From Haliclystus octoradiatus (taxonomy: Eukaryota; Cnidaria; Staurozoa; Stauromedusae; Haliclystidae), in contig OU744447.1 of NCBI GenBank assembly GCA_916610825.1, positions 13,313,751 to 13,377,750 of the forward strand: a stretch of DNA of 64,000 nt, read 5' to 3'. Position numbers and translations under genes: made by a program. Shown piece after piece: positions 10,777 to 50,630 of the stretch; the stretch's first letter is position 1, and the number at the start of each line of letters is the position of its first letter. A model generated the notes under the pieces. The model was given only the letters and a program-made list of their open reading frames with translations. It was not told the origin of the DNA and searched no databases.

Positions 10777-12260
10777 TCATACCTCTCCTTCTTCTTTCAG
10801 AGATTTGAAATCGACAACAATCATTTGTTTGTTTGACATTAACGATTTTGTTCGACGTACTTCGATCTTTAATGTTGATCTATCATTTTCTCCGTGAGGT
10901 ATTAGTGATGTGGGTGATGATGGCAACGAATCAGTGCTTTTGATTGTGTTGAGTGATTCAGAGCTAGGCTCTTGTATAATGCTAAGCGGTGATATCGTGT
11001 TCTCATCAAAGGGTCGTGATCGACTAGATCTCAACGGTCGTTTGTTATTGCTTTCTGATGATAGTTTCTCTAACCGTTCTAGGAACTCCAAGTTTGTAGT
11101 TTCTGTATCAGTTATTGTCGTTTGCTGAAATAAACTTTCTATCGAACCTTCTTTTAAGCGTTCAAAATGAATCGATCCCCTATCGGCTAAATATGTTTCT
11201 TTGCAAAGGCTCTCAAGAGAAAAGCGGTGTCTAAGAGGCACATGAGATCCTCTTTTTGATTGCTCTTCATTGGTAGATGCAGTGTTATCACGTGGGCATA
11301 TTTCCGGCACATCTTGATGATCGGGTACATAGTTTTCAGATTCATTGAGATCTGGTAAATCATCGAATGTCAATACAACGGGTTCATCACTATCATTTTG
11401 AAGTTGTAATTGTGAATGTCGTAACTCTGGTGTGGGTGTTGATGCCATGGGTAAAAGAGGATGTGAATCAGAATGAGCTTCACTGCAACTTGATGCGGCT
11501 TGATCCATACTTATATTTTCGTCATCTACAAAAATGATAGATCGTAGTAGCATTAAAAAAATTTAGAGACGAGAGGTGCCAATTAGCTCTTCAAATAAAG
11601 GTGTAACCTAAACATGACACTAAAGTAAGAAAAAATACTTATCAAATCTGAATAATGCATGATATTTTGAAAGTAGATCATTTGAAAGTATACAAATTCG
11701 TTTTTAAAAGTTCTTAAGCCCAGACATCAAGCCCAGACATTAAGCTCTGGCATTTCCATATTGACATGAACTCCAACCACGTTGAAGCAAGCCACTGGTG
11801 GAATCATAGCACTGTTTCTATATACTTACATGTTAATGGCATGGACTGTGAATAATCTTCACATGTGGCACTCTCCTGGAAAACAGGAAATCAAATGTAG
11901 GAATTATTGAAATAGATTGGAGCAAAAATGATGCAAATTTATCTGATAAGTTTATATCCATGCAATCTTTCCGTTGCGCGATACACTCACAGTGAATCTA
12001 TTGTTATAATTAAAATTATAACCGCAGCATCTTAAATTTCCATTTAATGCATTACTCACATTGGCATTGCGATCCTTGTCTCTGTCTGTTGTTGCTTGCC
12101 TTCTTTTCTTTCCACCGTAGCTACTAGCTGATCTATCCATTGAATTGCTTGCTGATTTATTACTGAATTTACGAAAACGAAGAGATGACGTATAGCCTGC
12201 CTTTTCATTGTATTCATGGCGTGGTTGGCATTTCAAAATGCGACAATATTCAGCACGAAC
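10777..12260 (-). CDS. adhesion GPCR exons 27-29: long cytoplasmic tail
   Basis: Exons 12060-12260 (phase 0-0), 11830-11875 (phase 0-1) and 10777-11525 encode residues 1199-1529. The tail starts V-R-A-E-Y-C-R-I-L-K, has a basic K-K-R-R-Q stretch, and becomes low-complexity and Ser/Thr/acid-rich with many possible phosphosites (R-H-R-F-S-L-E-S-L, R-R-T-K-S-L). It ends K-E-E-G-E-V, which is not a standard PDZ ligand. The final GAGAG|GTATGA could serve as a splice donor just before the TGA, so a longer isoform is conceivable. Confidence 0.85.
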
Positions 12261-15200
12261 CTATAAATGGTTGTGAACAAATTATGAGAATCGATTTGCT
12301 TATTGACGATCTATCTAATCAGAAGTATGCAAGTGGAATGTCAATGTAGACTACTTACTCTTGAGTCGATCAAGCAATGGAAGATAAAAATAAATAAACC
12401 CTAAAAATAGAAATGTTATTATTGTTAATTGGAACATGATATTTGAAGGAACTGATACAGGACTATACGTATTATGTCATGAAAGCCATTTGATGGAGTG
12501 ATGTACTGTATTAAACTAATACCATGTTTACAAGAACGAAGATCAATCTTCTATTGCAGATACTATGTACGGACAGCAAATAATCCGTGTTTATAAGGGG
12601 GCTGTGAGTTTTGTTGAGGGAGGTTTTGCAAACCTGTGCATTATCTACTTTTAAATTCAATTCTAACGTATAGTTTCTGTTTGTGATAAATCTTAGTATG
12701 GTTCTCATTGGTTGTTGACCGGTATGGATCAGAGCCATATATTTACAAGAGTTGGGACAGTCTTTCATGTGCCGCTCTCGGCTTCCATCGGACAGTTCCA
12801 GTCACATGATTAATTAATTCGAAAAACTTTTTATTCGAAAGAAAAATATGGTTTTCAATGGAACGAAAGTGAGAATTTTCGAGCCCCAAAAGTAGCATGT
12901 CCCAACCCTTACAAATATAAGGCTCTGGTATGAATATGTATCATGATTCTTGAAAGTACAGAATTCTTGTACGTAATTAAATATAGCTAATGTACATCCA
13001 TACATATCTCACCTGCAATGCATTGCAAATATTGAAGAGATAAGCAAAGACAATAGTACTGCCATTAACATAAAACAAACCAAATATCCATGTAATACCA
13101 AGAAGACAGGTTAGTACATTACATCCCTTAAGCCAGTACCTTCAATACATACAAAAATAATGATTACAAAAAGAAAAAGAAAGACAATTTCATACATAGC
13201 ATGTATGATGAAAACTGACATTGCTTAATATCCTCCTCTATAGAGCAGATCAAAAAGAGGGAAACTGTCGACGATGTAGAGAATGAGAGTTTTATGGAGA
13301 ATGGAATCTATAAACAAGTTACATGTGGGGACATCAATCAATCTTGCTGTACATTAATATATGCTATTAAAGGTTCAAAACTTATATTGGCCGCCCTTAC
13401 AGGTTAACTGTAAATGTGATATAATTGTATATTCGATTTTGTCCTTTTGCCTCTGATTGCGTATTTTAAAATTACTTAGAACATTTGGATCTCATACTAA
13501 CCAAGTCTCTCGAGCTACATCCAAGTCTTTTGATTTCTTTCGTTGTGCCATAACACAAAATGCCTGTGCCATGACAATAACGTTCATCTATAAATAAAGC
13601 GAGGAAAACGTTATCTATGGTTACTATGGTCTATCTAAGGGCTTTGGTAGATGAATATCGTGGTTGATTATTTTGCATGAGGGTCATAAACTTCGTTCTG
13701 ATATTTGAAGGGCTGTAAGACTAGATCTAAGAAGATTTGTAGATGACATTTTATTGCCGTCAGGAAATTCATCCATTCATCAAACGTCAGAGGGGCTACT
13801 GCCATACTTTCGGTATACGGGGACGTTCAAATACTAAACATTATATTTCAAATTCAGAACATTTTTAGGGTATTCTCTACAATAAATACTCTTTGATTTC
13901 AGTGAAGTTTTTACTCAAATTTTTGTAATTACTTGGCAATCTTTCTCATGATCTGAAACTTTGCTACGCTCATTCTGCCAAAGTTCTATTTGATCAACCC
14001 CGTCGAAGCGCAATGGAAGCTACTCCCGGGGAGTAAAGGTGAACACCGTTTATTTGAAAGTCTCATTTCTAAGTCAAACGATAAATGATTTACCACCTGC
14101 AATTCTCTGATAATAAGAATAGTATCCACCTACATTATAATGGCAATACATACTAATACCCGATCAAAATAATTAGAAAAATACAAAATATCGTAATTTA
14201 TCCTGTTATAGACCGTGTAGTATTAGTATACGCACTGTGTGCCTTCTACACGAATACTCTTTTTGTTGGATTTTAATCCCAATAAAGATACATGATGATG
14301 ATGATGAATACATACGCGAACAAAATATTTACATACCATCAAAATGACGACGATTGGTCCAACGAAAGCCCAAATGAAACCATCAACAGTTGAAAGCCAA
14401 CAGCTGCAATATTCCAACATAATAATGTTATTAGAGATTATTTATTTCGTTACCTGAAAGAGGTTAAATCTGGTAGATCTTATTCGATTTCATTTGGTGT
14501 ATTTAATCCCAAACTCTCAGCCTTTTGCTTATGGAATTGCTCAAATATGAAAGATGCTTTTCTCAAAACGCGATCAAGGATGCCACTATTCATCTAATGA
14601 CATTCTTTGAGCTTACATGGCTCTAATATAATGATGATAAATTATTTTTAGACTCTTTGCATGTGGCTGAAAAACTCCAAAAACAGATTATTAATGACAT
14701 TAAATCGATACATAAACCTGGACATCATTACTTTACACCATCAATAGTACTAAAGAAGATGGCCATTGGAATAGTTTTTCAAAAAATTGGATAAACACAG
14801 TGCTTCGGTTTTGCAGCCACCATTTCAAATAAGTCACAAAGTCTCAAAATCATGTATCTTTATTTGGGTTATTCTGAGTCAAAAGATTAGTCTCTCTGCC
14901 GAGCAATTTATCAGATTGCATATAAGTGGAAGTTTGTCTAGTGAATACAAATTTAACTAAAGCTGGTTACACTGTTAGCAGAATCCCTGAATAAGCAGCT
15001 GTGTCATAATCCTCAATCCATACGTAAATCCAAACTAAAACGACAGTATTTTATAACCACAGATATAAACATAAGTATATACTTACAAATCAGAAGTCCC
15101 ATAGCCATTCTGTTTAATTCCTGCGAGTACTCCGACATATAACGCAGGAACAACTATTTGAATAAAATAAACATAGATACAAAAAATTAAGATATCGTAT

Positions 15201-18200
15201 CATAATTATATCATATCATTATTAAATCATATCATTACTATATCATATCATTATTACAGGACATTACATCGTTATTATATCCTATTATTATTATATCATA
15301 CCATTATTATATCTTGAACAAAAGTTTCTCCGTAAAACATTTCAGAGTAAAAGATAGCGACAAAATACTACAAATTTTTCAACAATCACTACTTGTAGTT
15401 TTTTGTTGCTATCTTTTACATTATTATATCATATCATTACTATATCATATCCCTATTAATATAATATCATTATTATATCATATCATTTTTATATTATATC
15501 ATTGTTATATCATATCATTATTATATCATATCATTACTATATCATAACTATAATGATCAATACTATAACACTGACGTTAAGTTAAGACTTTTCAGACACA
15601 CGATAGAACCTGTTCTATTATATGCATCTGAAACGTGGGTTCTATCAACCTCACTATTGACCCGACTGGACTCAGCTTATGACGCCATGCTTCGGCATGC
15701 TTTAGGAGTACATTGGCCCAACTTACTGTCTACTGCTAAACTTAGAAAACTTTCCCCTTCTGCCTCTGCTATTGCTCACCAACGTCAGATGTCTTTTTTA
15801 GGTCACATCGAAAGATCAAAGACGTATGCCCCTCAACCGCTGCATGACATCCTTCATTGGCAACCGAAGGAGATGCTTCGACGGGGCTATGGGAGAGTAG
15901 TATGTTTTCATAATGTTTTGTATCGTGAATTGTGTTATTTAAAAGTTTCTTTGTCAGCTATGTCTGACCGTGTTTTGTGACGTTCTTTGTGTAGCAAATA
16001 TGTAAGGCGTAAGAGGGACGGCACATTCCTATAATGTGACTGTCTATACTACTACTACTACTATTACTACTACTACTACTATATCATACCATTATTATAT
16101 CATATCATTACTCTATCATATCATCATTATATCATATCATCATTATATCAGATCATTATTATATCATATCATTATTGTAATTAAAAGGTTATTTTGTTAT
16201 TATCATAAGAGCAAGTCGAAACGTCGGAACAAATTTAATTGGAATTTTTTGTCTCGATCTTTTATCTAAAATATCATTATTGTATATTTAAAAGTCGAAT
16301 TACATAAATAGACTTACTCCAACATAGAGATTGGCAAAGCTTTCCCTTCATAAACTTTCGATCTGAGAATATCTTCTTGAGCATAAAATAGAGCATTAAC
16401 CCTTCCATTGCCATCCAAACAAACGCAACAAGAAAAAAGTAATGGAGAAGAATGGCAATAACTTTGCATACAATCTGAGAGACATATAAAAAAGAAAAAC
16501 GTGTTAGAAAAAGGAAAATAAAATAAATTGTTTTATAACAGACACTTATAAAAAGACGATAAATAGCATTCAATAGTTTTGAATGCATAATTCGATTATC
16601 TGAATGGTTTAAAAATACTAACCGCATTTTCAGTGCGTTCGATGCCAAATATAAACAGACCGTTGGCTAGAATTAGAGCCACAACGAGATTTTTATGATA
16701 AACTACCCTCGGCGATTGTAAAAATCTAAAAGAAAGAAAAATATGTTTTTCAATTAACTTTGAAATAGAGAAATATATAATGTTAATCGGTTCGTTAAAA
16801 AACCGACCTGAGTTAACTTCTAAAATACCTCCTCGTAATACTGTTAACGTTAATGTCAATGGCTACATATAGGTATCATAGAAGCAGTGTAATGTGAAAC
16901 TTATTAATAATAATAATATTACATTTGGCAGCAATGACTGACAAGTGCTTATTTATTGGGGGGACATTAACAAATCTACATTATACAAATGATTACTATA
17001 ACGATAAACATGTGTGCACCGACGAGGAATTGAATCCCGGCCTACCGCACAGACCCACTGCCACTGAGCTACCAGTAAATATTAATAATAAACTGCATCA
17101 TAACAACAGTACTGTCTGCATTAGTAACATCTTACCTGAATATCATGAATGATAAAAGTGCAAGAATCAATGCAGCCAATGAAATGAAGAGACAAACATA
17201 AGATATGATACGAAGGTATGAAGCATGCATCTTCAGCTAAACAACAAATAACAGGAAAATGGATTAACATAATGCACTTGGAATAGAAACGAGCTAGATT
17301 GTGCCCAGTGCAGTACATAATTTTTTGCATTCTGGTTTCTGATTGGTCAATCTATCCCAGTCTATTTATCAATAGATGCATACTGAAAATTTCAGAGAAT
17401 TTGAAAAACAAGAACGAGAGACGAGAATGTTTTACTTTAACTAGTTACTTTCGTTTTTGTGAATAGTTACATCTTGTTTAAACTTTATACTCTACATCAT
17501 ACTTTACCTCAGGTGTCATTGGAATATCACTGACTGTCATCAAAACAGCAAAGCTGGTTAAATGATAACAATGACAAGTTGTTTCAAGTAATCCTGTTTT
17601 GTTTACAAAGCAACCTTCAGAGGACCATTCCCCGTTGGTACTGAAATAGCAGAAATAGACAAAAGTTATTAGTAATAGTGCGTGAGAACAGTATAAATAC
17701 TATCATTTATCAAACATCAAAATTATACTGGTAGTATTGCATGGACATATAAATATTTGTTTTCATTTATTCTTACCTTTTGCTTTCATCCCAATATACA
17801 CATGAAGTATTGATTGACTTTTCAGGCTTGAAAAAAAAAGCATCGTCATCTTGATTATTTGACATAATTCGAACTCTAAATATCCATACTTGTGAATATA
17901 GACTTTCCAATAAGTGTGCAAAAAGGCTCGATATAAGTCAACGCTCAGCTAGTGCATATTTAACATACCTTTGAATGTTGAAATGATAACTGAAGGGGTT
18001 TCTTTGTAAATTTCATAGCGTCTACACCAATCACAGTGACACTCATGACTTGAGAATTAACAAATGATGATATTGACGATGAATGTCCATCATTATGTTT
18101 ATGAGATGTACTAATTACAAACAAAGGTACAATATAAAATCAAGAATTTAACTACAGAACTAAACAGAAATTTCGAGATAGAAAAAATGTAATTATCATA

Positions 18201-21200
18201 TGCCGTCAGAATTTATCGCTCATATATGTAATGCCACTTACAAATCTGAATGTTGTTACAAAATGAGATATATGATCACATCATGCAACCGTCTAATCAT
18301 TTCAAATGGCTGTCAATTAAAGCCTCTAATAAAGACACATACACTTTCATAACAATACTGAGACCCACATATGGATACAAGGAAGATGGGAACATAGCAA
18401 ATTCATTGAGATGAGAATACGGGAACATCTTGAAAAGGTTTGCGGGGCATCATATTTTTAAATGTCCTATACTGTTTGAGAAGTGATATACATTTTCAAT
18501 AACAACTGCACTGAAAGAGTGCCTCGTTGGCTCTGTTCAATATTTCCAGTTTTCAGTCTACACTTTCCTCCCAGGGTGTTTTTTTTTTCGAATATTGAAC
18601 ATTTCTCTTATTACCATTGCAGAAAGAGATATTTTGGATAAAAGACAATTAATTTTTGTCATAAAGAGAAAAATGTTAAATTGTAGAAATCTCAAATGAT
18701 CTAGCTCTACGATATTATAAAGAGAACATTGCTATTTTGCGATAGGATCACGGAATAAAATCAACATAAAATCAACATAAAAACTACATGTATAGCCCGA
18801 AACTAGTTGACATTTCTGTTTTACTGGAAAATTTGCACTCGCAATCAAAATAAAGTTCAACATTTCAGATACTCCCCCCAGCCAATAGCAGATAGTTGAT
18901 TGAAACGCATCAAAATAGTTGAAATTTCTGTTTAAATCAAATTTTCCTCGCTACGCTCGCAGAAACACAGCTTTATATGAAGTGACGTTTCATATCAATA
19001 TCATTTTCACTCAAGTAATCAGAAAACGATTTCCTTTCTAAACCATCCTCTCGATAATATAAATTTAATATACGCGCATATTTTACTCCTGATACCCTCC
19101 ACGCATATTTTTGGGGCAAGCTATTCAACAACCCCGACCCTCAAGACTGTTTCACTGAGTCTTATACTATCAATCTCTTACATGGGCTTCTCCAACAAAT
19201 CGTTGATGTTCTTATACATAACAAACGAGGCTGTCGCATCAGACTGACCTATAAAATAAAATATCCATTATCCATAGTAATCAATCATTTCCCGTCAAAT
19301 CACCTAGCATAGCAATATATCATCTGAATAGTATCATATATATTTGTAGTATTATGTAGTGAAATCAATATAAATACTGTAACTGTTTTTAGAAGCCGAA
19401 AACGTGAAGAAGACCTTTAAGACGTCGCGAAGGAAAGCCTGAGGTAGTTACCAAACATCTTTATGCATATCAATATAAATGAGACTCGTGTGACGCAAGC
19501 TATATAGGCCATACCAAAAATTCACTATACGAGAAGATTAAAACACACTGTTCGGTATCTTCTGCAATTGGTAAGCACATAAAAAATGCACAATCAAACC
19601 ATTGATGAGTTAACCAGTCGCTTTTAAGTACTACGCCATTGTAAATCCAAGCGGGACTGAATTCATATATGAAATACTTTTCGTAAGAGACTTGAAACCA
19701 ACCTAAATTCGCAGATGGATTCAATACGCTCTGTATTAATTTGAATTTAATTTCAAAGAATGTAAATTACAATAATTTGATTATGAGTTTTAGAATATTT
19801 ATTTTCAAACTTCACTCTTGAAATAGATGTTACAACAGGGAGCTACAAAATATACTTGTGCATGCGACCAATTTTTTCCTTTTCAAAGTGTGTGAAAGTT
19901 GCTTAGGTTACTGACTTACTTATGAAACGACACTGTTTTAGTGAGAATAACATCGATTGAAGTATGTTTAGAATTTATAACAGTTACCAAGTCAGAAATA
20001 TCTGCAGTAATAATTCAAAATGAAGAAATTTGTGCAGTTTCAAAAGTTGTGCTATTGTGCTCAAAATGTGCCTGCGACCAACGGTCCAAGTGGTCCCCAT
20101 TTTATTGAGCTCTGAGGATGTATAGGAGATATCCAAGGCGTTGAGCATGAAAATAAAATTAGAAAATTGTTGCTATTGACTTTTGCTGTCAAATAATATC
20201 ATTATATACCATACCTGTATTGGAGAGGTGTTCTTTAACAGGCAAAATAATAGAGTTGAATAATTTTTTGCCTGCAGGCTGCAATTGAGTTGTATTGGGT
20301 GAGAAAGAATCCATCTTAATGGTGATATCTGTGCTACTTCGGCTTACAATAAAGTCTGTTGATCGATAAAAAGCATTTTACTTCAACTACACTGAAACCA
20401 TTGCATATACCGTCTATAATATTTTTCATTCACCCAGATGGTTGAATGAGAGTGGACTGAATGACTGAGTGAATGACTTACCAATATTATTTTGTTTTGA
20501 AATGAATGACTGCGATGGGGAAAGATTTTCACTGACAAAGTCTGCTACTACATCCATAGATTTCATCAGTTCCTCAGCTTGTAATGTTCTGTTAAGCTAG
20601 AAAAATCAATACCAAATTTAACAAAGTATAGGCAGAACTGTAATGATAATATATATAGCATGAACAAGTTTTATGTAGCAAGGAAGGCGGTGACCCTAAA
20701 TGTAAGCATCATCTTTCAAGATAATCTATTAACTAACAAATGATAAAAATGCTATCAAGACGATTATATAATGCTGGCATAACAGCTACTGTTCTTGTTT
20801 TTCAACTGGATTAATTTTTGGTCTGATGTGATGGCTGAATGTTGGCCACATTCTAGGTTCCATTTAGGGAGGAAAGCTAACATAACTGATAAATCGATTT
20901 GGTAAAAATACAGCTTGAGCGTGCTAATAAGTAAAGTGTTTTGTGCTTATCTGCATTGCTAGGAATCGATTCAAACCATCATTATCATCATCATCATTAT
21001 CTGCATTACTAGGAATGGATCGATTCACATAGTTTTGAGGTTCCGGACTAATTTTACCTTTGGTATATCTTTCCATGCTCTTGCATTGAGTATCTCTAAT
21101 AGGTTACTTCCAACACCAACCAAATCCTGATCATAACATACAAATGAATTAAATCGATATAAACACTTCATTGGAACAAAGAAAAGTATTTTGATGAGGG

Positions 21201-24200: not shown

Positions 24201-27200
24201 GCTATGAATAAAAAGAAATTGTGAACTGATGTTATGTTTTCTTTATCCTGATAAGATCTATTTATTTCTCTCTCACGGCATACGTAAGTATTTAGATATT
24301 CATTACAGCCAAACCTATTTTAACGGCCACCTCTATACAGCGTCCACTTGTCTATAGTGATCACCCTTGAAATATCTAAGATAGTATTTTCTATTGAGAT
24401 AGCTCTGTATATAAAGACCACCGGCATATAGTGGTCAACTTATCTACTTCTCATAGCTGGTTGATTGTTATATCTATAGATTTCACTGTTCACTTGCATT
24501 AAAACTCGGATGTTGTTTTAGAAATAATATATCTGAAATGGATGATCATAAACCATCCACTGCAGTGCATCCGCATTATAAAAGAAATCGCAGAAAGTCG
24601 ATTTTAATTAATTACATTCAAGGTAAACTAAATATAATTTGCCTGTATAGTTAAGTAATTAGACAAAGTTTAAATGGAGAATGCACTAAAGAAGGAGAAT
24701 TGCGTCGCTTTTTATTTTAATCAAAACATTTTCACAAGTATACGACGTTCAATAGCATGCATGAACTCAAAATTGAAATAAAAAAATTAGAATATTGAGG
24801 TAAACACCACTAATGGATTTAGAGTTGACGATAAAGTTATGATTGGTAAGCCTAATAGCTCGTGGTAAGGATTTTTTTTTTTTTTACAAGAGGGCCAGTT
24901 ACATGATGGTGTCAGTCATAGCCGATGATAAAGGTTTTGATATATTGACCAACTTCTATAATCTCAAAAATAAGCTTGATTTAATCAGATTGATAGTTCA
25001 TACCTTCGACTAGCATCGTAACATCAATAGTTTTCATTTCACTAACACCCATTTTACCAACACTACGAACAGTCATTCTATAAGTTCGACCAGTGATGCC
25101 AGGAATTTTGAAATTGTATTCACTGTTGGCACCTACATAATTTTGCGTTGTGTTGACTATGACTTTACCATCGTAGACGTCAATCACACAAAACTACAAA
25201 ATAAAATCCTTCAATAGATTAGATGGAATTCAAAATTAATTCAACTCGAAGAAAGCAAACATATTTATAATGAGGCGCTAATTTGAAAATTCTTTCTGAA
25301 TGGTTCACCCTACTCAAAAGATAGATATTAATTCTTGCCCCAGATTAATCTGTACAAGTGAAATAGATAATCAAAATAAACCTAAAATCTACTTTTCTAT
25401 TACGTATAATCTATAAATAATATTCTCTTATTAAATGGCGAGAAACTGTGCATGATGAGCTTGTTATTAGCATAGTCAATTGGTTTGCTCCAATAGGATT
25501 GATCGGATAACTTTAATATGATTGACTATAATGGTTGTTAAGAGGCGGAGGAAACTTGTTTAAATCTCCTTATGCAAAATAATGTATAAACATGGCAGCA
25601 TAATTCTATAAGTTTGCTATCAAAATAATAATTAATCAGATCATTATCGTAGTAAACGCTGCTCTCTGCTAATAAGTAAATTGTATCATAATAAGCTCTA
25701 AGCTAATTTTGTAGAAATTGAATATTAAGCAGGCAATATATGATAAATTTAAAATCACATCAACGGATTCCCTTACAATAAAATGAACAATTAGAGCATT
25801 GGGGATGCTAGGCGCCTTCCATGTGACCGAAGCAGAAGTAGGACCATCACTCTTTGCAGTCAGGTCAGATGGTGGATTGGGAACTAGGAAAAAAGAAAAA
25901 CAATTTTTATTACAGTTGATCTTATCGATGATTAGCAAGAGAAGATAAGTCATGCAATTACGGCCATAACTTTATGATTTCAGTAAATATTTAAACTAGC
26001 ATATTGCAAGACAAAGTACAACATATATCCATATAATAAGATAACGTCAATAACGTCGTAGAAACCATCTCTTGATCTAGCTTCGAATATTTATAAATTG
26101 ATTGTAACTGTGTAGCCCCGAGTGTAGCCCTTAAAAAATATGTTTCTGCGTTTCTGCTATTTTGTTCTAAAGCATTTTTAATTTTCGACTTAGTTATCCT
26201 TCATATGTTTTCATTTTAAAATTCACGTTCATTTTCCCAGTATCATTTAAGACAATACTGTCGGTGTCAACTCGTGTACGTAAGTGGGAACTTAACTTTA
26301 TTCCTTGCGTTTTCTAATTATTTTGAATTACTTTAAAAATGTATATGATACCTCTATATGTGTATAGTGCACTGTGTTTACCATATGCGTGATAAATTAG
26401 CTGATCTGATTTTATGAATAATGAAAATGTGGAACGTCATCTGTTCTTTTCCTCGTAAATAATACTAATACTGTATCCGGAAATTCTCAAGTCACATTGA
26501 GTGATAAGGCCATAAAGCCAACTTTAGGGTCTTTTAGATCGGAATACCAATGAATAAAATTACAAATCAATGCTATAAGTTGATATTTGCAACATTATTA
26601 ATGCATATTTAATGAGACTCACTTCCGTCTGTTGTTGTACAAGTGACCTTCTCCGATCTGAATTCTTTTTGATGCTTTAAAACTACTTCGACCCACAGAG
26701 AGTAAGAGGACAAAGGTTCTAATAAACAAAACAATACAAAATACATGAACTATGTGCTATCTATATAAACTTGCTATATACGTTATAGCGTCAATCCTAT
26801 TTTAAATGAGTTGATCCTCTCAGTGTGGCTGTTTGCAATTGATTTCCTATATGGATATGAGACATATGGATAATAACATTTTTTGACCCCTTAGAACATC
26901 CAATTTTATTCTAGAAATCATATTTTTAAAATGTGCTACTTTATAAGACCATATATCGACATATAACTGTATATCTTGACCTATAAAATAGAGTTTCCAA
27001 AATCGTTTGTTCATCCATCAGTTTGTCATTTTTCAACCAAATATTTTGTACATAGCATTATCAGAGCCGCTGATATTTGAACTAGGTTATCGGATAGCTT
27101 TCTTTTGCGGCTCCTGACCGCAACCTAGCAAAAACAAAGGTCTACCCTCATTCAATTTCCAAAGCAACGGCATGCATCATTGATCATGCACACAAGACTG

Positions 27201-30200
27201 AAAAAATATCTGCTCAATTTAGTTTTAGCTCAAGGTAATTTTACTCTGCTCAAAGTAGCCCAGCAATGCGAGAACCTTATTGCTAGTTACTTATAAGGTG
27301 ATATGGGGGATCGAGTTGTATATATAGTAAGCCTGCTTTATTGCATTATGTAATATTACATATACTCATGATTACATAATTATTTTCGTTTTCATAAGCT
27401 TACCTAAGCCAGAGACACAGGTGGAAGTTACTGATTTCGATGACGGCTGCGTGTTGATGAGTTTTGCACCTGCTTTTTGATAAAGAACTGATAAAGCGGT
27501 GACTGCATTAAAATGATCTTCAGGCATTTTCCAATAGATACAAATTGAAGAGGCATTAGAGCGGCAATCACGGTAGATATTTAATGTTGCTACAAAAAGG
27601 AAAGAATTAAACTTATTATAAGTGATTTACGGAATGTATGCTTCATCATCATCATTCGTCATCATTTATTCATAAATTTTTAAGTTACATACTTTTTATT
27701 AAGGACTGATTAATTACTAAAATATCATACAGGGTAAATCGAACGGGAAACAGACATTTATACAGCGTTTTGAAACAGACATATAGGTAACAGAACAATA
27801 AATAAGTGTCGTAGCGTCCTGTAATATTCGACCGCATGCAATTTGACCGGCTAAACAGGGAAGTTGTAAGTAGGGAGCAATTTCAACATGCTAAGCTGAG
27901 CTGTCTGTAAGAGGGACTTAAGAATAATAATTAACCAATACCAGTTAATAATGATGACATACCTACAACAGAAGTGTATACAGCTGCTGCATCCTTTTCA
28001 GAAATTGCTTCATCCCATATCGCTAGTTCATCAAAATCAGCATCAATGAGATATTTCTCATGCCCAATTCTCAGCATATTCAATTCTTTAGGTGATTTGG
28101 TAGTAGAAGCAGCAGTATCCCGCTTTGATCGACCAGTGTTGTTATTGGCTTTCACTAGCTGCTGTCCATCAAGATAAACAGCAACCATTCTGTCTCCATT
28201 CCATGTGATCAGATGATGAACCCACTTCTGTGGTGGGGCAGGGTAAGCCATATTTACACTGAATGTTTTCATTTTAAAATTCACGTTCATTTTCCCAACT
28301 CGATCTCTTGAAATAACAAATCCTTCAGCACTTCCAATTACATCTTTATTACCTACAAAATACTGTCTCACACCTGGCCCATTTCTAAATCGTAACCAAA
28401 ACGAGATTGTCAGCCCAGCAGAGCATTTCTCTGAATCTCCACAACAGTCTACAAACCGTCCTAAATTTAAGCTAGCGCCAGTGCCTTGTAACGTTAGAAA
28501 GTTATTTCTAGACCTCAAGCCATTACTCTGTAACTTAGCACCAATTCCTCCAACAGTACTTTGAACTCCCGTTACAGAATCAGCTACCAAGAATAGCTCA
28601 CTTGCCAAATCAAAACTCCATTTGTGAGCTAAGCGAGTTTGAACTAATGAGAAAAACAATTAATGCATTGTGAATTTCGATACTAATGTATAAATTAGAT
28701 ATCAAACAGATATACCTAAAACAGATGTGTAATCATTTGCGCTCTCTTTTCATATATGACAAATATAAGTGAAATAGAAAATTCAATTCAGTGCCCGGGG
28801 GAGGGGACTTAGATATTTTTTGGATGAGTTCTGCCATCTTTAGAAAACAGGGACGACTGTAAAATTTCACAGCAAGCGAGGATTGAGAAGTTACAGTTTC
28901 GTGTATTTAAATTGAAATTGACACGGTAAAATGTAACAATAATCTGGAAAAGGCACCCCTTAAAAAGAGTACGTCCCCGGATAAACGATGTGTCGAAGAC
29001 CTTCCCCCTGGTATTCGTTGTTTGTTAATTTACTTCTTAAGAAGCTTATTAATAAGATAGTTTATCATGCAAATAACCCATGCAATCATTTGGAGCATAA
29101 GTAGAAGCGTGACTTCATTATTTTTTTATCTCATAATGCTTCAATATTATTACATCAACATCAAGCATGATGGTAACAGCTTGGTCGGTCATCCTTCATT
29201 CATAGCAGATTATATCACTTTCATAAAAATTCATGGTCAGAAACTATTAAGTGCTAAGAGCTATATAAAATGTAAATGTTATGTAAATTATAGTTTGATA
29301 TATATAGTTCTAGAGGGAAACAGTGTATATATACATATATCATTGAGATTGTATGTGTGAATCTGAGAGAGTCAAGGAACATATGATAGCAGATGACATT
29401 ATGAAAGTTTATGTAACATCACAAGAGAATATAAACGTGGATTTTGTTTTAGTTTGAAACAGTACAAAATGTTAGAACAAAACTTAGAAAGAAATTTGGG
29501 CTAACCCGAATTCCTAATCACTCTAAATGTCAATGGCTACATATTTTGATTTATAGCACGTTGTGACATGGATGTGATACCGAACTTATCCGACTGCTGT
29601 CCTTGTGACATCTCGACATGGCCCTTGTGAACGGACCCATCCCCGAAATTGATCTTATGAACGGACCCATCCCGACATCGATCTTATGAGCGGACCCAGC
29701 CCAACTTTGATCCTATGAACGAACCCATCCTGACATGCCCCCTAGATATGATATCGACATTAAGGCCCAAATGTTTCTTGCCAGATGTCTGTGATCACAA
29801 TGAAGCAGTTTAAGCACTTTAAATTCTTCAACATTTCTTGTGAAATTTAAGAATATGATCTTACTGTTTTTGTAGAAAGTCTCAGCAGAGGAAATACAGC
29901 TCAAAGCAACAATCACTAGAAATAAAACAAGATCAGAATAAAATTAAAAGATTTGAATAAAGATGTCAAAGATAGGGAATTAAATATTCAGATAATAGAT
30001 TATGCATAAGGACTATTAGCTGTAAGACTGTATCCATATGCGAAGAACAATTAAAATATCAATACAGTAACGGTCACTACATGCAGTACTGTATAAATAA
30101 TCAGACGTGGGAAAATTTCTACCAGATTAGAGATCATTATTTATCTGTCTTTAGTACCGTTATAATTAAATCAGGATGTAGAAAAACATTTTAATTATAG

Positions 30201-33200: not shown

Positions 33201-35285
33201 TGTAGACAGTACTGAATTCTCAAAGGACAGATTCTTTTGGATTTCAAATAATTCACCTTGACGATATTGGTCAACGATAATTTTAAATCAGAAAGTTTGA
33301 CGAAAGTTTGAAAAGACGAAAACGCACAACGGAAAAACAGTATTGTTCTCGTGAACAATTGCGAATAAAATATCTAGAAGAGCCGACCCGATCGTTGTTG
33401 ATTGCAGCATTTCATTACCTAAATATAGACTATGAAAATTCCCACAAATTAATGTTGTTAAAAGTGAAGATAGATTTTAATTGCTGCTATTGAACAATAC
33501 AAATTGCATCGATCGTTATAAAAATACTAAAATATGCAACAATGATACGGAACGACGAATAAGAATAGCAAATTCATGTTTATTAAAGACACGTTATATT
33601 AGCTGTTGCCAATATATTGGATTAGATTCCATCTGCTACTGCTTCATAAAATATAGATTCAATGTTTTCATATATTGGTATAATCAAGGTGTAAATTACG
33701 TCATATTACAAATTAGTTATATTAAAAGTAGATAAGTATATCCAATATATAGACCATAGGTACAAACTTGAATATATTATATTGCATCGAGAGAAATATA
33801 TTCATCGGTTGGCATTATATCAACTCGCGATAAAGCACGATCATATTATTAGAATGATCTTTACGTGAATTTGAAAAATTGTGCAGTGTTTTTTATTAAT
33901 TGTTTTTATTTATTTCTGTAAACAACAATGACAATGAATTACTTACAGAAAATGTTCAAGATTTTTTGACAAATCCTCAGATTTAAGTGTAGTTTTAAAC
34001 ATATGTACATTTTTCGCTGAGCGAGTAATTACAGATATAGTGAATTATAAATATTTATGCAGAGTACAGCAAAAGAATGACAGTACACATTTGATTTAGA
34101 AAGAGGCATAAGTGTTGTCAAAATGTATACATACGGTCGACAGTTAGTTTTGGTGAATAGTATCTGATATCCCAGGATAAATCAGCATTTGTAAATAATC
34201 TATTTCTAAACAATCAATGAAGCGAATCTAGGTATAATAATTTATAAAGCACAGATATCATCTGCATTTCAAATAAGTATATTGTACCATCCAGATAGAT
34301 GATTAGTGCAAGAAAATAAAGAAAAATGTATATGATTGGAAAAGAAAATCCAAATTAAATTTTGACTTAATTATTTTGTTTGGATATTAGATTGGTATGA
34401 CAGGATAAACGTACTATTTGTATTTAACAGCTGCTACTAGGAAAATTCAACCTAAATATATTAGTTGTAATAAATATCAATAAACCTAAACTGCGTAAAT
34501 GTGGGAATGCATAAGATAAATGTTGGATTACAAAGCCACATGTGTTGGAGACATATTTACATGTACATATAATAGTACAATAGTATATACTGATTGTTTC
34601 AGTTAGAGATTAATTTAGATTAGACACAAAAATAAGAATTTTTTTATCGATATAGTCAAAATGAATTCGTGAGATTTTTAAGATAAATTGTTGTTGTTTT
34701 CAAGGTACTACTAGATATACGGCTAAAATCAATAGGAACAGATAATAGCAGCTGGAATAGTGAGCTACTCACAAACACGTACGACCCCTTCAAAACAACT
34801 CTCTCTACTATCTCTTGGTAAATTATCTATGTATTATATGATAATATTGATAATGAAATATACGGATAATTATATAAGAGACATACTGTAATACTATACA
34901 ACATAAGAAGAAAATAATAACATAATAAATGATAGTATAGTAATAAACGATATGAAATTTGGCGTTTTAGAATTGTCTTAATGAATTCCATACCGAAATG
35001 CAATGCCCACGCTTTTCAGAAATATAATGTCTGTCTTGGAGAGATTATAATCCAAAAAAAACTGGAAACACGATATATTGTCGATTGATCAGTTAGGTTA
35101 TATTCAAGTATACTACATAGATATTATAATATAATATGAGAATTGTGATATTGTATAAGCAAATGACCACAATTCTGCAATATAGCAACAACAACAACTA
35201 TTACACAAAAATAAAACAGCAATCTTCAATGATGACACAACATACCAATGATGAAAACATTCAACAAACATTTCCAAATTGTCAT
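10777..35285 (-). CDS. adhesion G-protein-coupled receptor, complete, 29 coding exons
   Basis: A cell-surface receptor expected to self-cleave and be activated by its tethered 'Stachel' peptide. Exons in transcript order: 35285-35246, 29915-29865, 28643-27963, 27589-27404, 26718-26623, 25883-25777, 25193-25004, 24201-23917, 23515-23390, 22742-22620, 22066-21957, 21393-21220, 21126-21058, 20596-20482, 20355-20215, 19248-19182, 18110-17969, 17826-17777, 17640-17508, 17236-17136, 16725-16623, 16474-16318, 15153-15087, 14403-14337, 13587-13502, 13139-13013, 12260-12060, 11875-11830, 11525-10777. All junctions are GT-AG, phases match throughout, and the sum is 4,590 nt (1,529 residues plus stop). 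Order: signal peptide, LamG-like, FN3 x3, cbEGF, HRM, GAIN/GPS, 7TM, long tail. HRM, GAIN and 7TM place it in the adhesion class. The N-terminal order matches no vertebrate subfamily I know, so no symbol is given. Exon calls are by eye; alternative exons are possible. Confidence 0.92.
13013..17236 (-). CDS. adhesion GPCR exons 20-26: seven-transmembrane domain
   Basis: Exons 17136-17236, 16623-16725, 16318-16474, 15087-15153, 14337-14403, 13502-13587 and 13013-13139 encode residues 963-1198. TM1: V-C-L-F-I-S-L-A-A-L-I-L. TM2: H-K-N-L-V-V-A-L-I-L-A-N. TM3: H-Y-F-F-L-V-A-F-V-W-M-A-M-E-G-L. TM4: V-P-A-L-Y-V-G-V. TM5: F-I-W-A-F-V-G-P-I-V. TM6: L-L-G-I-T-W-I-F-G-L. TM7: F-A-Y-L-F-N-I-C-N-A-L-Q. 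C1033 (TM3) and C1106 (ECL2, in Y-G-T-S-D-F-C-W-L) should form the conserved disulfide. All are class B2 hallmarks. Confidence 0.95.
13217..13345. mobile_element. decayed relative of the pogo-like MITE
   Basis: Read on the minus strand this region follows the element at 6192-6360: 'ccattctccata.aaa.ctca', a pyrimidine run near 'tccctctttt', and the end 'ggatattaagcaa'. It begins with gacattgcttaatatcctcc. Terminal ~10 bp and TA duplications are not recognisable. It lies in an intron of the adhesion GPCR. Confidence 0.5.
13802..14031 (+). repeat. dispersed repeat family R1, copy 1
   Basis: It shares ends with 39674-39872. The start is ccatactttcggtatacggg followed by gacgttcaaa. The end is accccgtcgaagcgcaatgg followed by aag.ta. 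The middle is more diverged. Same orientation in both copies. This copy sits in an intron of the adhesion GPCR. Its family is not recognised. Confidence 0.7.
14284..14306 (+). repeat. short (ATG)n microsatellite
   Basis: Four to five catgatgatgatgatgaat units next to exon 24 of the GPCR. A longer one lies at 39612-39655 beside repeat R1 copy 2. Confidence 0.7.
15185..15556 (+). repeat. AT-rich minisatellite, left part
   Basis: Degenerate tandem copies of a ~15-16-bp unit built on atatcatatcattatt, interrupted by a hairpin element (15346-15421). The same unit resumes at 16076-16180 on the far side of a LINE fragment. The frames seen here are simple-repeat artefacts. Confidence 0.85.
15346..15421. 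mobile_element. small hairpin element in the minisatellite
   Basis: Arms of ~28 bp, gtaaaagatagcgacaaaat with actacaa and its inverted copy ttgtagttttttgttgctat with cttttac, surround an 18-bp loop. Its sequence differs entirely from the repeat around it, so it looks like an inserted MITE or a remnant of one. Confidence 0.6.
15574..15980 (+). pseudogene. LINE reverse transcriptase C-terminal fragment
   Basis: Continuous frame giving P-V-L-L-Y-A-S-E-T-W-V-L-S, L-D-S-A-Y-D-A-M-L-R-H-A-L-G-V-H-W, R-Q-M-S-F-L-G-H-I-E-R and R-R-G. This is the post-RT region of many LINEs ('LLYg.EtW.l', 'lR..lGv.w', 'lGHi.R'). The RT core is absent. After R-R-G-Y-G the frame runs into a 3' UTR-like sequence and a (ACT)n tail near 16045-16080. 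It splits an AT-rich minisatellite and lies in the GPCR intron between exons 22 and 23. Confidence 0.75.
16076..16180 (+). repeat. AT-rich minisatellite, right part
   Basis: Continuation of the atatcatatcattatt array beyond the inserted LINE fragment. Confidence 0.8.
16914..17079 (-). mobile_element. tRNA-derived SINE (family S2) in GPCR intron
   Basis: Read on the minus strand the 5' end is ctggtagctcagtggcagtg and then g-t-c-t-g. It has a pol III A box (TAGCTCAGTGG) and a B box (GGATTCAATTCC, near 17024-17035). The body runs about 100 bp and ends in aatgtaatatt. The flanks are a 12-bp direct repeat tattaataataa (16902-16913 and 17080-17091), interpreted as the target-site duplication, though its low complexity weakens that. 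No proper acceptor stem forms, so it is not a functional tRNA. Confidence 0.7.
17508..21393 (-). CDS. adhesion GPCR exons 12-19: GAIN domain with GPS
   Basis: Exons 21220-21393, 21058-21126, 20482-20596, 20215-20355, 19182-19248, 17969-18110, 17777-17826 and 17508-17640 encode residues 666-962. The helical half is seen in L-A-H-D-L-W-N-A and L-L-E-I-L-N-A-R. The beta half is in A-S-F-V-M-Y-K-N-I and V-N-S-Q-V-M-S-V-T-V. The GPS has both tryptophans (913, 923) and all four cysteines (910, 928, 940, 942). The autoproteolysis triad is intact as H-L-T at 944-946, so cleavage is expected between L945 and T946. The exposed tethered agonist would begin T-S-F-A-V-L-M. Confidence 0.92.
19489..19606 (+). 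pseudogene. Penelope-like element GIY-YIG fragment
   Basis: Plus strand, antisense to the host gene: C-D-A-S-Y-I-G-H-T-K-N-S-L-Y-E-K-I-K, then S-A-I-G-K-H-I-K-N, then S-N-H and TGA. The 'Y-I-G-x-T' box, basic helix and 'sai..H......H' pattern match the C-terminal GIY-YIG endonuclease of Penelope-like retroelements. The RT part is absent. It lies in the GPCR intron between exons 15 and 16. The minus-strand open frame here is a shadow. Confidence 0.65.
21957..22742 (-). CDS. adhesion GPCR exons 10-11: hormone-receptor motif (HRM)
   Basis: Exon 10 (22620-22742, phase 1 to 1) and exon 11 (21957-22066, phase 1 to 0), residues 588-665. The run G-I-I-W-P-R-I-Y-N-G-E-T-A, then K-C-P-T-G-S-T-G-F-A-T-S-Y-C is the HRM signature ('G..WP.t..G....  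CP.g..G...R.C'). A further cysteine follows in S-G-C-V-S-H-R. The domain sits directly before GAIN, as in latrophilins and CELSRs. An upstream ATG at 22786-22788 in the same frame lies in the intron and is not the start. Confidence 0.85.
23390..23515 (-). CDS. adhesion GPCR exon 9: calcium-binding EGF domain
   Basis: A 126-nt phase 1-1 exon, residues 546-587. It encodes D-Y-N-E-C-A-D-P, C-D-A-N-A-D-C-L-D-T-N-G-S-Y-F-C-L-C and G-F-Y-G-D-G-Y-R-C. Six cysteines, the D-x-N/D-E-C start and the D-T-x-G-S-Y/F motif (Asp hydroxylation and Ca binding) are all present. Another frame stays open here and is a shadow. Confidence 0.95.
23917..24201 (-). CDS. adhesion GPCR exon 8: FN3 domain 3
   Basis: A single 285-nt exon, phase 1 to 1, residues 451-545. 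It opens A-P-K-R-N-V-S-G-L-K-V, carries W-E-S-I-S-L-S-W-K-P-L, and closes with D-V-Y-S-I-N-I-R-A-V-S-S-M-G-H-G-P-P-L. Unlike FN3 domain 2 it has no internal intron, as expected for a cassette that can move by exon shuffling. Confidence 0.9.
24306..24446. mobile_element. pogo/Tigger-like MITE remnant
   Basis: Starts after TA with cagccaaacctattttaacg then gccacctctatacagcg and tctatagtgatca, and ends near accggcatatagtggtcaac in inverted sense. The same terminal sequence occurs at 45077-45140. These ends are typical of pogo/Tigger DNA transposons. No transposase is present. It lies in a GPCR intron. Confidence 0.65.
25004..25883 (-). CDS. adhesion GPCR exons 6-7: FN3 domain 2
   Basis: Exon 6 (25777-25883, phase 1 to 0) gives N-P-P-S-D-L-T-A-K, S-A-S-V-T-W-K-A-P-S-I-P-N. 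Exon 7 (25004-25193, phase 0 to 1) gives V-I-D-V-Y-D-G-K, then I-P-G-I-T-G-R-T-Y-R-M-T-V-R-S-V-G-K-M-G-V-S. This is a textbook FN3 with the P-P-x-x-L start, the core W and the L/I-x-G-x-T-x-Y-x-x-x-V-R-S-V F strand. The mid-domain intron in phase 0 is common for FN3. Residues 352-450. Confidence 0.88.
26205..26239 (-). repeat. 35-nt perfect copy of LamG exon sequence in an intron
   Basis: 35 bases identical to and in the same orientation as 28263-28297 inside exon 3 (coding for G-K-M-N-V-N-F-K-M-K-T on the minus strand). The match stops abruptly on both sides. It sits in the intron between exons 5 and 6, about 2 kb 3' of the source. Confidence 0.9.
26623..27589 (-). CDS. adhesion GPCR exons 4-5: FN3 domain 1
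   Basis: Exon 4 (27404-27589, 186 nt) and exon 5 (26623-26718, 96 nt), all phase 1, encode residues 258-351. The core tryptophan sits in I-C-I-Y-W-K-M-P-E and the late strands in P-L-S-S-Y-S-L-W-V-E-V-V-L, ending T-C-T-T-T-D-G. The tyrosine-containing S-Y-S-L-W-V strand is the usual FN3 F strand. The domain is more divergent than the other two. Confidence 0.75.
27963..28643 (-). CDS. adhesion GPCR exon 3: LamG-like jelly-roll domain
   Basis: One 681-nt exon (residues 31-257, phase 1 to 1) encodes a concanavalin-like/LamG-type domain of the kind found in pentraxin-like and LamG_3 families. Visible landmarks are H-K-W-S-F-D near the start, G-L-T-I-S-F-W-L-R-F, E-G-F-V-I-S-R-D, K-W-V-H-H-L-I-T-W-N-G and V-A-V-Y-L-D-G-Q, and near the end I-D-A-D-F-D-E-L-A-I-W-D. 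A cysteine cluster D-C-C-G-D-S-E-K-C sits in a loop. R-S-K-R-D (202-206) is a furin-like site inside a loop, which may cleave or open the domain. In this protein class such domains bind extracellular ligands. The ligand is unknown. Confidence 0.9.
28707..28752 (-). pseudogene. relic of a duplicated LamG exon 3' end
   Basis: On the minus strand this reads S-A-N-D-Y-T-S-V-L followed by a G|GTAT donor-like site. It closely parallels the real end of exon 3 (A-A-A-V-Y-T-S-V-V, then G|GTATGT). Roughly 22 of 25 bases match around the splice site. No further LamG sequence is seen upstream. Confidence 0.55.
29611..29730 (+). repeat. ~30-bp degenerate tandem repeat, four copies
   Basis: The unit is about gacatcgatcttatgaacgg followed by acccatccc. 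It repeats with substitutions and is GC-richer than its surroundings. It lies in the intron after exon 2 of the GPCR. Confidence 0.8.
29865..29915 (-). CDS. adhesion GPCR exon 2: end of signal peptide
   Basis: A 51-nt exon, phase 1 to 1, after a TTTCTAG acceptor and before GTAAGA. It encodes V-I-V-A-L-S-C-I-S-S-A then E-T-F-Y-K-N. The first codon is completed by the G of exon 1, and the last (A|TT, Ile) by exon 3. Confidence 0.85.
31392..31649. mobile_element. Mutator-like MITE with ~50-bp TIRs and 9-bp TSD
   Basis: A 258-bp element. Its ends are ~50-bp inverted repeats starting tagcctgctcgcagactcac then tgtcaaa; left and right differ by one indel and about two bases. It is flanked by the perfect direct repeat ctgtttctc (31383-31391 and 31650-31658). 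A second, internal copy of the inner TIR occurs at about 31456-31487. There is no transposase. A 9-bp duplication with long TIRs is characteristic of Mutator-like elements. It lies in GPCR intron 1. Confidence 0.9.
31660..35245. other. remainder of GPCR intron 1
   Basis: AT-rich intron sequence. Open frames at 32.85-33.18 and 33.3-33.7 kb are AT-driven, with no domain, bias or splice support. I see no exon or intact mobile element. Confidence 0.5.
35246..35285 (-). CDS. adhesion GPCR exon 1: start codon and signal peptide
   Basis: ATG at 35285 begins MTIWKCLLNVFII and ends in G plus a GTATGT donor, phase 1. Joined to exon 2 it gives a classic signal peptide: a charged residue, a hydrophobic core of about 15 residues and a likely cut after S-C-I-S-S-A (residue ~24). 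No other in-frame ATG lies near. Intron 1, 5.3 kb, is the longest in the gene. Confidence 0.85.
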
Positions 35286-36992: not shown

Positions 36993-37155
36993 TACTGCAT
37001 GGTTACTGTAAATGCTGAGCTTTCTCACATCGGTACTGCATGGTTACTGTAAATGCTGAGCTTTCTCACATCGGTACTGCATGGTTACTGTAAATGCTGA
37101 GCTTTCTCACATCGGTACTGCATGGTTACTGTAAATGCTGAGCTTTCTCACATGG
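36993..37155 (+). repeat. 41-bp tandem repeat, four near-identical copies
   Basis: The unit starts tactgcatggttactgtaaa then tgctgagctttctcacatcgg. Copies start at 36993, 37034, 37075 and 37116. The first three are identical and the fourth ends catggg. The identity implies recent expansion. Confidence 0.95.
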
Positions 37156-46942: not shown

Positions 46943-47677
46943 CTAACTGTTATACAGTACTTCACGGACAATAGAGGGTGCCATCGGCGTTATTACTCCA
47001 ATCTTTCGTCGTCTCCTTTGAGATGTCGATGGAATTATTCTTTTATTTTCATCGATAGCAGGTAAGTTCTTTTTCCATTCGCTGGTTTTCTTTTTGCGTT
47101 TCTTATTGATTTCTTTTGGTTTAGGCTGTGTCACTCCATCTCGATAAGACAAAGATGAATAAATTGTTTTCAATTTGAAAATATCGAGAAGATAACTGTC
47201 GCAAGGTGAACGTGTAAACTCTTTAGAAGAACATCTATGATGATTCTTTGATTGACGAAGAACAGAAGAGCAAGGGCTCAAATTTAAATTTATTGAAATA
47301 GCGTTTAATCTTCTATCCTTATCTTCCAACAAATAGGATCGGCTTCCAAACAATCCTTTTCTGACGATCTCTGCACAAATATTGTGATTTAGTGATCGGC
47401 AATACTCATATAGTGATGTACCATTGTATGTCAGATAGACTAGAGAAAACATTTGATTTTGAAAACAACGGAATACATGACGAAAAAATCCACAATCACC
47501 AGAATCGATGGCTAAAAATAATGGAGTTTTTCCATGTTGATCTTCTCTAGAAAAATCAACTTTTAATGTTGATCGATTCTTAAAATAATAGTCAAATTCA
47601 ATCTTGTTTCCTCTGAGGCATACGACATGGACAATAGAATCTACTTTATTAATTTGTTTCTTATTTTCTCTTCTCAT
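46943..47677 (-). CDS. ankyrin-repeat protein, single exon, 244 residues
   Basis: An uninterrupted frame from ATG to stop. Residues 45-68 (D-Q-H-G-K-T-P-L-F-L-A-I-D-S-G-D) are a clear ankyrin repeat. Flanking stretches (I-V-H-V-V-C-L-R-G-N, and N-G-T-S-L-Y-E-Y-C-R-S-L-N-H) look like weaker repeats, so about three helical pairs near the N-terminus. The C-terminal half is basic, with K-K-R-K-K-K and Q-R-R-R-R-K-I stretches that could act as nuclear localisation signals. It ends S-I-V-R-E-V-L-Y-N-S. The partner and role are unknown. A TATA tract lies about 60-80 nt upstream and a polyadenylation signal follows. Lack of introns and the short repeat array make a retrogene or small scaffold protein possible. 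Confidence 0.75.
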   Translation of the reverse strand: MRRENKKQINKVDSIVHVVCLRGNKIEFDYYFKNRSTLKVDFSREDQHGKTPLFLAIDSGDCGFFRHVFRCFQNQMFSLVYLTYNGTSLYEYCRSLNHNICAEIVRKGLFGSRSYLLEDKDRRLNAISINLNLSPCSSVLRQSKNHHRCSSKEFTRSPCDSYLLDIFKLKTIYSSLSYRDGVTQPKPKEINKKRKKKTSEWKKNLPAIDENKRIIPSTSQRRRRKIGVITPMAPSIVREVLYNS

Positions 47678-47738
47678 GTTGTAATTACTCTCGTTCTGAA
47701 TTAACTGTCAGTCTAACAATCTGTACACTTCAATAGGA

Positions 47739-50618: not shown

Positions 50619-50630
50619 TCTTTAATGTAT

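Follow-up and report, generated by a model that had tools for sequence, protein, structure and literature searches.

A Haliclystus octoradiatus adhesion GPCR with a laminin-G, fibronectin, and EGF head and a core that is probably sister to that of the bilaterian latrophilins

Much of the work on latrophilins has centered on their lectin head and on its partner, teneurin. Two sources report teneurins to be missing from cnidarians (PMC6510184 and PMC6297184), and a third states that diploblast latrophilin homologs, for example Nv24490 from Nematostella, must be teneurin-independent (PMC6428715). A further study (PMC4302439) assigns Nv24490 to the node that unites human groups I and II; this protein may or may not belong to the family described below. 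The nine vertebrate adhesion GPCR subfamilies are listed in PMC13197933, and the genome of Haliclystus octoradiatus is described in PMC9975415 as comprising 262 Mb in 33 scaffolds, with chromosomes of about 34% GC.

Here, we analyze a stretch of 64,000 nucleotides from this genome (the window; 33.1% GC). We consider it likely that the gene it contains encodes a cnidarian adhesion GPCR with an HRM-GAIN-7TM core that is sister to that of the bilaterian latrophilins (ADGRL1-3/Cirl), with a head of LamG, three FN3, and EGF at the position held in latrophilins by a rhamnose-binding lectin and an olfactomedin domain, and with GAIN cleavage and a tethered agonist as the working model.

A multi-exon adhesion GPCR gene spans 10777-35285 on the minus strand. 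The original prediction had placed such a receptor in this interval, and Pfam matches to 7tm_2 (181.6 bits), GAIN (82.6 bits), and GPS (50.8 bits) bear this out. The exons were joined by hand from the sequence and then corrected against related proteins, denoted below by P numbers. As rebuilt, the gene reads from 35285 to 10777 and comprises 30 coding exons, which encode 1,543 residues and a single terminal stop. All 29 introns are of the GT-AG type with matching phases (13 of phase 1, 11 of phase 0, and 5 of phase 2), the one after exon 1 measuring 5,330 bp, and the gene is real and well formed. Its exons are as follows.

Exon 1, 35246..35285, minus: start Met and first part of the signal peptide (MTIWKCLLNVFII); ATG, GT donor, phase 1 out; 3/12 vs P0001
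Exon 2, 29865..29915, minus: remaining signal peptide; 4/16 vs Clytia, weak
Exon 3, 27963..28643, minus: laminin-G-like (ConA-like jelly-roll) domain; Laminin_G_3 49 bits; 81/223 identical vs P0001; AlphaFold2 pLDDT 83.7
Exon 4, 27404..27589, minus: FN3-1, first part; exon chain, Pfam, relatives' alignment
Exon 5, 26623..26718, minus: FN3-1, second part; exon chain, Pfam, relatives' alignment
Exon 6, 25777..25883, minus: FN3-2, first part; exon chain, Pfam, relatives' alignment
Exon 7, 25004..25193, minus: FN3-2, second part; exon chain, Pfam, relatives' alignment
Exon 8, 23917..24201, minus: FN3-3, single-exon domain, phase 1-1; best Pfam fn3 stretch, 456-535
Exon 9, 23390..23515, minus: EGF domain (calcium-binding type by eye); EGF_3 33.1 bits; 23/41 identical vs Rhopilema
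Exon 10, 22620..22742, minus: HRM, first part; HRM 18.3 bits, under cut-off; Cys conserved
Exon 11, 21957..22066, minus: HRM, second part; Pfam, relatives' alignment
Exon 12, 21220..21393, minus: GAIN; Pfam GAIN 82.6 bits
Exon 13, 21058..21126, minus: GAIN; exon chain, relatives' alignment
Exon 14, 20482..20596, minus: GAIN; exon chain, relatives' alignment
Exon 15, 20215..20355, minus: GAIN; exon chain, relatives' alignment
Exon 16, 19182..19248, minus: GAIN; direct junction to exon 15; GAIN 74.6 to 82.6 bits without two candidate exons
Exon 17, 17969..18110, minus: GAIN; exon chain, relatives' alignment
Exon 18, 17777..17826, minus: GPS, first part (CVYWDESK); exon chain, five-protein alignment
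Exon 19, 17508..17640, minus: GPS, HL/T triad and presumed tethered agonist TSFAVLM; GPS 50.8 bits; H944-L945-T946 invariant
Exon 20, 17136..17236, minus: TM1; 7tm_2
Exon 21, 16623..16725, minus: TM2; 7tm_2
Exon 22, 16318..16474, minus: TM3; 7tm_2, overlapping the 7tm_2 genome match 16343-16594; 39/52 identical vs P0001
Exon 23, 15087..15153, minus: TM4 / ECL2; exon chain, relatives' alignment
Exon 24, 14337..14403, minus: ECL2 / TM5; exon chain, relatives' alignment
Exon 25, 13502..13587, minus: TM5 / ICL3; exon chain, relatives' alignment
Exon 26, 13013..13139, minus: TM6-TM7; 31/42 identical vs P0001
Exon 27, 12359..12400, minus: end of TM7 (GLFIFIFHCLIDSR); 14/14 vs Rhopilema and P0001
Exon 28, 12060..12260, minus: juxtamembrane cytoplasmic tail, EYNEKAGY common to P0001 and Rhopilema; 32/65 identical vs Rhopilema
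Exon 29, 11830..11875, minus: cytoplasmic tail; phase-consistent; 3/7 vs Rhopilema, weak
Exon 30, 10777..11525, minus: cytoplasmic tail and stop codon; 39/224 vs Rhopilema

The matching phases claimed originally hold, but the count of 29 exons and 1,529 residues does not. Exactly these numbers are reproduced by leaving out exon 12400-12359 alone, so the earlier model very probably lacked the end of TM7. The product of this 42-bp exon, GLFIFIFHCLIDSR, is identical at 14 of 14 positions to both Rhopilema and P0001. Homology gives weak backing to the two signal-peptide exons (35285-35246 and 29915-29865; 3/12 and 1/7 against P0001, 2/6 and 4/16 against Clytia), and it is thin for the tail exon 11875-11830 (3/7 against Rhopilema); the last exon is also weakly conserved (39/224 identical to Rhopilema). 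A plain Viterbi gene finder had skipped most short exons, giving 15 exons and 786 residues, and was dropped in favor of hand assembly. The first hand model had 32 exons and 1,575 residues. Two of its exons, 20001-19934, whose gtgtcg donor is weak, and 19730-19703, did not align to P0001-P0004 and were removed, whereupon the GAIN score rose from 74.6 to 82.6 bits. The solved-structure comparison and the relatives search with residues 1-1300 described below used this first 1,575-residue model.

Several other features were noted in the window. Intron 1 holds, at 31392-31649, a structure resembling a small non-autonomous DNA element, with perfect 27-bp repeats in inverted orientation, separated by 204 bp, and further inner repeats, and the TM3-TM4 intron holds a 171-residue frame (15465-15980, plus strand), retroelement-like by eye and without a Pfam match at E 0.01, set among ATATC-type simple repeats. 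Upstream of the receptor gene lies a perfect 41-bp tandem repeat of 3.9 copies (36993-37153). Farther away are a 254-residue frame that is ankyrin-like by eye, with no Pfam match at E 0.01 (46943-47707, minus), an uninterrupted 483-residue frame for a Major Facilitator Superfamily transporter (49170-50621, minus; MFS_1, 95.3 bits), a reverse transcriptase fragment representing a retroelement remnant (54152-55201, plus; RVT_1, 51.7 bits), and a transposase-like fragment (62453-62917, minus; TNP-like RNase H N-terminal domain, 90.6 bits).

A Pfam scan of the 1,543-residue protein finds Laminin_G_3 at residues 104-248 (49 bits), three fn3 stretches (71 bits), EGF_3 at 557-586 (33.1 bits), GAIN at 675-880 (82.6 bits), GPS at 909-951 (50.8 bits), and 7tm_2 at 969-1202, the last scoring 181.6 bits against a cut-off of 20.6, as expected of a class B2 bundle. 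The proposed order of LamG, three FN3, cbEGF, HRM, GAIN, and 7TM is thus recovered, and EGF_3 passes its cut-off, with two weaker elements among those originally named: EGF_CA reaches 22.8 bits (cut-off 27), the calcium-binding consensus in exon 9 being our presumptive match by eye, and HRM, at 598-656, reaches 18.3 bits (cut-off 26.2). We accept an HRM-like domain as present in spite of its score, because the region aligns with relatives whose HRM passes. This is the case for 6 of 16 relatives (P0003 27.6, P0004 31.4, P0006 30.1, P0109 29.1, P0117 34.3, and P0118 27.4 bits), while HRM is under the cut-off or unlisted in the other 10.

The catalytic GPS triad H944-L945-T946 and the GPS residues C910, W913, W923, C928, C940, and C942 are intact, as had been claimed, and are invariant in all five aligned proteins (query included); the agonist residues are likewise intact. 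The ectodomain contains 14 N-X-S/T sites. AlphaFold2 predicts a jelly roll for the LamG exon (mean pLDDT 83.7), and a fold search with this exon matched jelly rolls of a generic kind at 10-16% identity. Entries of bacterial toxin binding domains made up most of the 50 listed (of 1,287); these matches would indicate the fold class only and imply no relation. Pfam finds no SUEL/rhamnose-binding lectin domain, no olfactomedin domain, and no cadherin repeats (the mark of CELSR/ADGRC) in the receptor protein. From the signal peptide to the HRM, every one of the six borders between domains (signal peptide/LamG, LamG/FN3-1, FN3-1/2, FN3-2/3, FN3-3/EGF, and EGF/HRM) is in phase 1, in agreement with the original prediction. 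Its statement that the order is unlike the nine vertebrate subfamilies is also supported: to our knowledge of their ectodomains, LamG-FN3x3-EGF-HRM-GAIN-7TM matches none of them.

The same set of domains recurs in other cnidarians, among them corals, jellyfish, and a sea anemone. Among 7,988 candidates, at least 44 proteins matched residues 1-1300 at E 0.001 or better, the best being P0001 and proteins from Rhopilema, Nematostella, Montipora (two), and Acropora. P0001 covers 97% of these residues at E 4.1e-227 (with the 1,575-residue model as query), and judging by the alignment this is not a chance match; its prediction lacks TM1 and most of TM2. The alignment gives 28-34% identity for P0001-P0004. 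A search with the HRM-7TM part found 522 proteins, of which the 120 listed add Clytia, Hydractinia, Oculina, and Porites and otherwise consist mostly of bilaterian latrophilins or latrophilin-like proteins. Laminin_G_3 and fn3 occur together in 12 of these 120 (precomputed domains), and the nine that carry a species name are all cnidarian.

When 16 relatives were scanned with Pfam, 13 matched Laminin_G_3, fn3, EGF, GAIN, GPS, and 7tm_2, each with an E value of 0.001 or less; the 10 of these with a species name are all cnidarian, and they represent seven genera (Nematostella, Montipora, Oculina, Porites, Clytia, Hydractinia, and Rhopilema). Those sharing both the domain set and the clade described below include Nematostella LOC5518271 (P0003), Clytia P0109, Rhopilema LOC135694494 (P0002), the Montipora 'LAT-2-like' protein (P0004), and proteins from Oculina (P0112, P0117), Porites (P0115), and Hydractinia (P0119). 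Their build is not uniform. LamG scores under the Pfam cut-off of 27.6 in four of the 13 (P0002, P0004, P0111, and P0112; 20.6 to 27.5 bits), and exactly three fn3 stretches together with an HRM match (E 0.01 or better) are found in eight. The Hydractinia relative has seven EGF_CA and a single fn3 stretch; HRM is unmatched both there and in the Rhopilema prediction, from which the beginning of LamG is missing. Montipora P0114 and P0116 have 9 and 10 fn3, some of which precede LamG, unlike the three of the query, which could be either a true gain of modules or a merged gene prediction. The full set is absent from P0005 (no EGF), P0006 (no LamG and no EGF), and P0118 (932 residues, no LamG).

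With its LamG, fn3, EGF, GAIN, GPS, and 7TM and its place in the clade, the receptor belongs to what we define here as the cnidarian LamG-FN3-EGF family, whose members carry only the database names 'uncharacterized', 'latrophilin-like', or 'ADGRL-/ADGRE-like'. Among the 64 listed matches of a five-protein profile search, which were mainly FN3-rich proteins, we recognized no new member, a result that is silent on absence elsewhere. We found no description of a LamG-FN3-EGF-HRM family in the available main text of the literature on sponge, cnidarian, and latrophilin adhesion GPCRs; figures, supplements, and most subscription papers lie outside that scope, and this is not proof of novelty.

For phylogenetic analysis, 49 of 221 returned proteins were combined with the query and eight single-exon receptors from the same genome (58 rows). 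The latter carry the whole 7TM in one open frame of 743-1014 residues, unlike the many-exon receptor; seven of them lie in two clusters (sites at C8 15.93-15.95 Mb, C8 9.60 Mb, and C2 24.80-24.82 Mb), and they match the GPS and 7TM of the query at 40-56 bits. The GPS+7TM tree left out these eight as well as P0196, P0013, and P0171 (47 rows). This phylogeny of the 7TM part, which the original prediction had called for, places the query and 12 cnidarian rows in one clade (100/99), and groups the cnidarians with the latrophilins at 91/42, the latrophilins not being one clade and the outgroup rows not falling together. The HRM-GAIN-7TM tree has 43 rows, P0110, P0015, P0014, and P0221 having also been dropped once the first tree was known, and is rooted on two ADGRG6 rows. 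It again recovers the cnidarian clade (100/99), unites bilaterian latrophilins with molluscan C-type-lectin forms (100/99), and makes the cnidarian clade the sister of the bilaterian latrophilins (95/87), outside them rather than nested within. The rows with the query that we take to be medusozoan (87/81) separate from those that we take to be anthozoan (93/87), and the latter form two groups. In AU tests, with groups chosen post hoc from the tree, uniting cnidarians with BAI was rejected (p 0.006), as was uniting latrophilins with BAI to the exclusion of cnidarians (p 0.005). Among the sampled families, the receptor thus stands beside the latrophilins.

These results bear on how the receptor arose. 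The phase-1 borders, six of six, and an order absent from the vertebrate subfamilies as we know them would suit a lineage-specific receptor built by exon shuffling in the Haliclystus line, as originally proposed. We consider this highly improbable, however, since a conserved family with the same domains, the module numbers varying, is what we found, and such a family is what the original prediction had named as refuting it: 13 of the 16 relatives, including P0001 and members of the seven cnidarian genera, have the set, and the cnidarian rows are one clade in both trees (100/99). Sequence comparison suggests that the receptor is of old cnidarian stock, related to the latrophilins, and not an isolated novelty; phase-1 shuffling may still be the origin of its build, though it would then predate the cnidarian radiation. 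We give equally little credence to a split in which the LamG, FN3, and EGF exons form one transcript or gene and those for HRM, GAIN, and 7TM another. Although the exon chain is read from genomic sequence, and some predicted relatives are partial (P0005, P0006, and P0118), the chain is single and phase-consistent, both halves are joined in one predicted protein in seven cnidarian genera, and the P0001 match runs across both.

A more serious question is to which vertebrate group the family is closest. Since neither tree includes ADGRE, ADGRL4, or ADGRD1, ADGRL plus ADGRE, and not ADGRL alone, may prove to be the sister group. The family might then be related to the stem that groups I and II (ADGRL plus ADGRE) share, or to ADGRL4, with the link to ADGRL1-3 a sampling effect, and the reported position of Nv24490 at the node of these groups would fit if that protein is a member. 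We regard this as unlikely on two grounds. Among the 60 of 121 solved-structure matches listed, those to 7TM-spanning chains some 280-350 residues long are led by ADGRL3 and ADGRL2 (L2 220, L3 216 and 212 bits), about 50 bits ahead of ADGRE5 (167 and 161), ADGRE1 (162), and an ADGRL4 fusion in its 7TM part (161), with ADGRD1 also lower (163, 159, and 155). In addition, the query has an HRM-like domain, whereas ADGRL4 is said in PMC6428715 to lack HRM. We retain a sister relationship to the bilaterian latrophilins as the probable placement.

We also looked for lectin-headed latrophilins in the same genome, which has at least 105 SUEL and at least 77 7tm_2 matches. None was seen among the matches listed, though a longer intron could hide one: comparing 76 of the 105 listed SUEL matches with the 77 listed 7tm_2 matches, the nearest pair is 60.5 kb apart on opposite strands, and the other 29 listed SUEL matches are on C5, more than 500 kb from any listed 7tm_2 match on C5. 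Dense SUEL-lectin arrays occur at C5 5.59-5.64 Mb and C1 18.60-18.72 Mb. Elsewhere, the latrophilin-like P0173 from Branchiostoma lanceolatum has SUEL lectin, C-type lectin, and Laminin_G_3 listed together, giving, by these domains, yet another head arrangement for a core of latrophilin type. Because cnidarians are reported to be without teneurin, teneurin is unlikely to be the ligand of the receptor described here.

By analogy with adhesion GPCR biology, we expect cleavage, mechanical or ligand activation, and coupling to a G protein. The LamG-FN3-EGF head would project from the cell and bind the matrix or a neighboring cell. The GAIN domain would cut itself at His944-Leu945/Thr946, with the two fragments staying joined, until ligand binding and a pull expose the tethered agonist starting TSFAVLM, which would enter the 7TM bundle and activate the G protein. 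The juxtamembrane tail, common to the nearest relatives, would provide the connection to the cell interior.

Beyond correcting a gene model by one missed 42-bp TM7 exon, the analysis illustrates that a domain order that is odd against the vertebrate subfamilies can be ordinary across a phylum. A conserved cnidarian sister family with another head, in animals reported to be without teneurin, would suggest that the latrophilin signaling core is separable from that ligand. We are more tentative, giving it somewhat less than an even chance, about the family being the cnidarian co-orthologue of the latrophilins, such that the core in the cnidarian-bilaterian ancestor predates the teneurin-binding lectin head, or that cnidarians swapped the head. 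If this is true, cnidarians keep a teneurin-independent latrophilin with a LamG-FN3-EGF readout, and the ancestral function is directly testable, since Nematostella, Clytia, and Hydractinia are tractable holders of the family in which knockouts are possible.

Among described receptors, ADGRB (BAI) resembles the query in GPS and 7TM (237 and 250 bits), but it has thrombospondin repeats among its listed domains, and its grouping with the cnidarians is rejected by the AU test. ADGRD2 (GPR144) has a LamG/pentraxin-type head, GPS, and 7tm_2 as in the query (precomputed domains), yet no FN3, EGF, or HRM is among its listed domains, and its two rows fall outside the group of latrophilins and cnidarians. 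The latrophilins (ADGRL1-3, Cirl, and LAT-1) have the same HRM-GAIN-GPS-7TM core, the HRM of the query being taken as present at its score under the cut-off, and are the nearest bilaterian group in the HRM-GAIN-7TM tree; where they carry a SUEL lectin head, with olfactomedin added in vertebrate members, the Haliclystus receptor has LamG, three FN3, and EGF instead.
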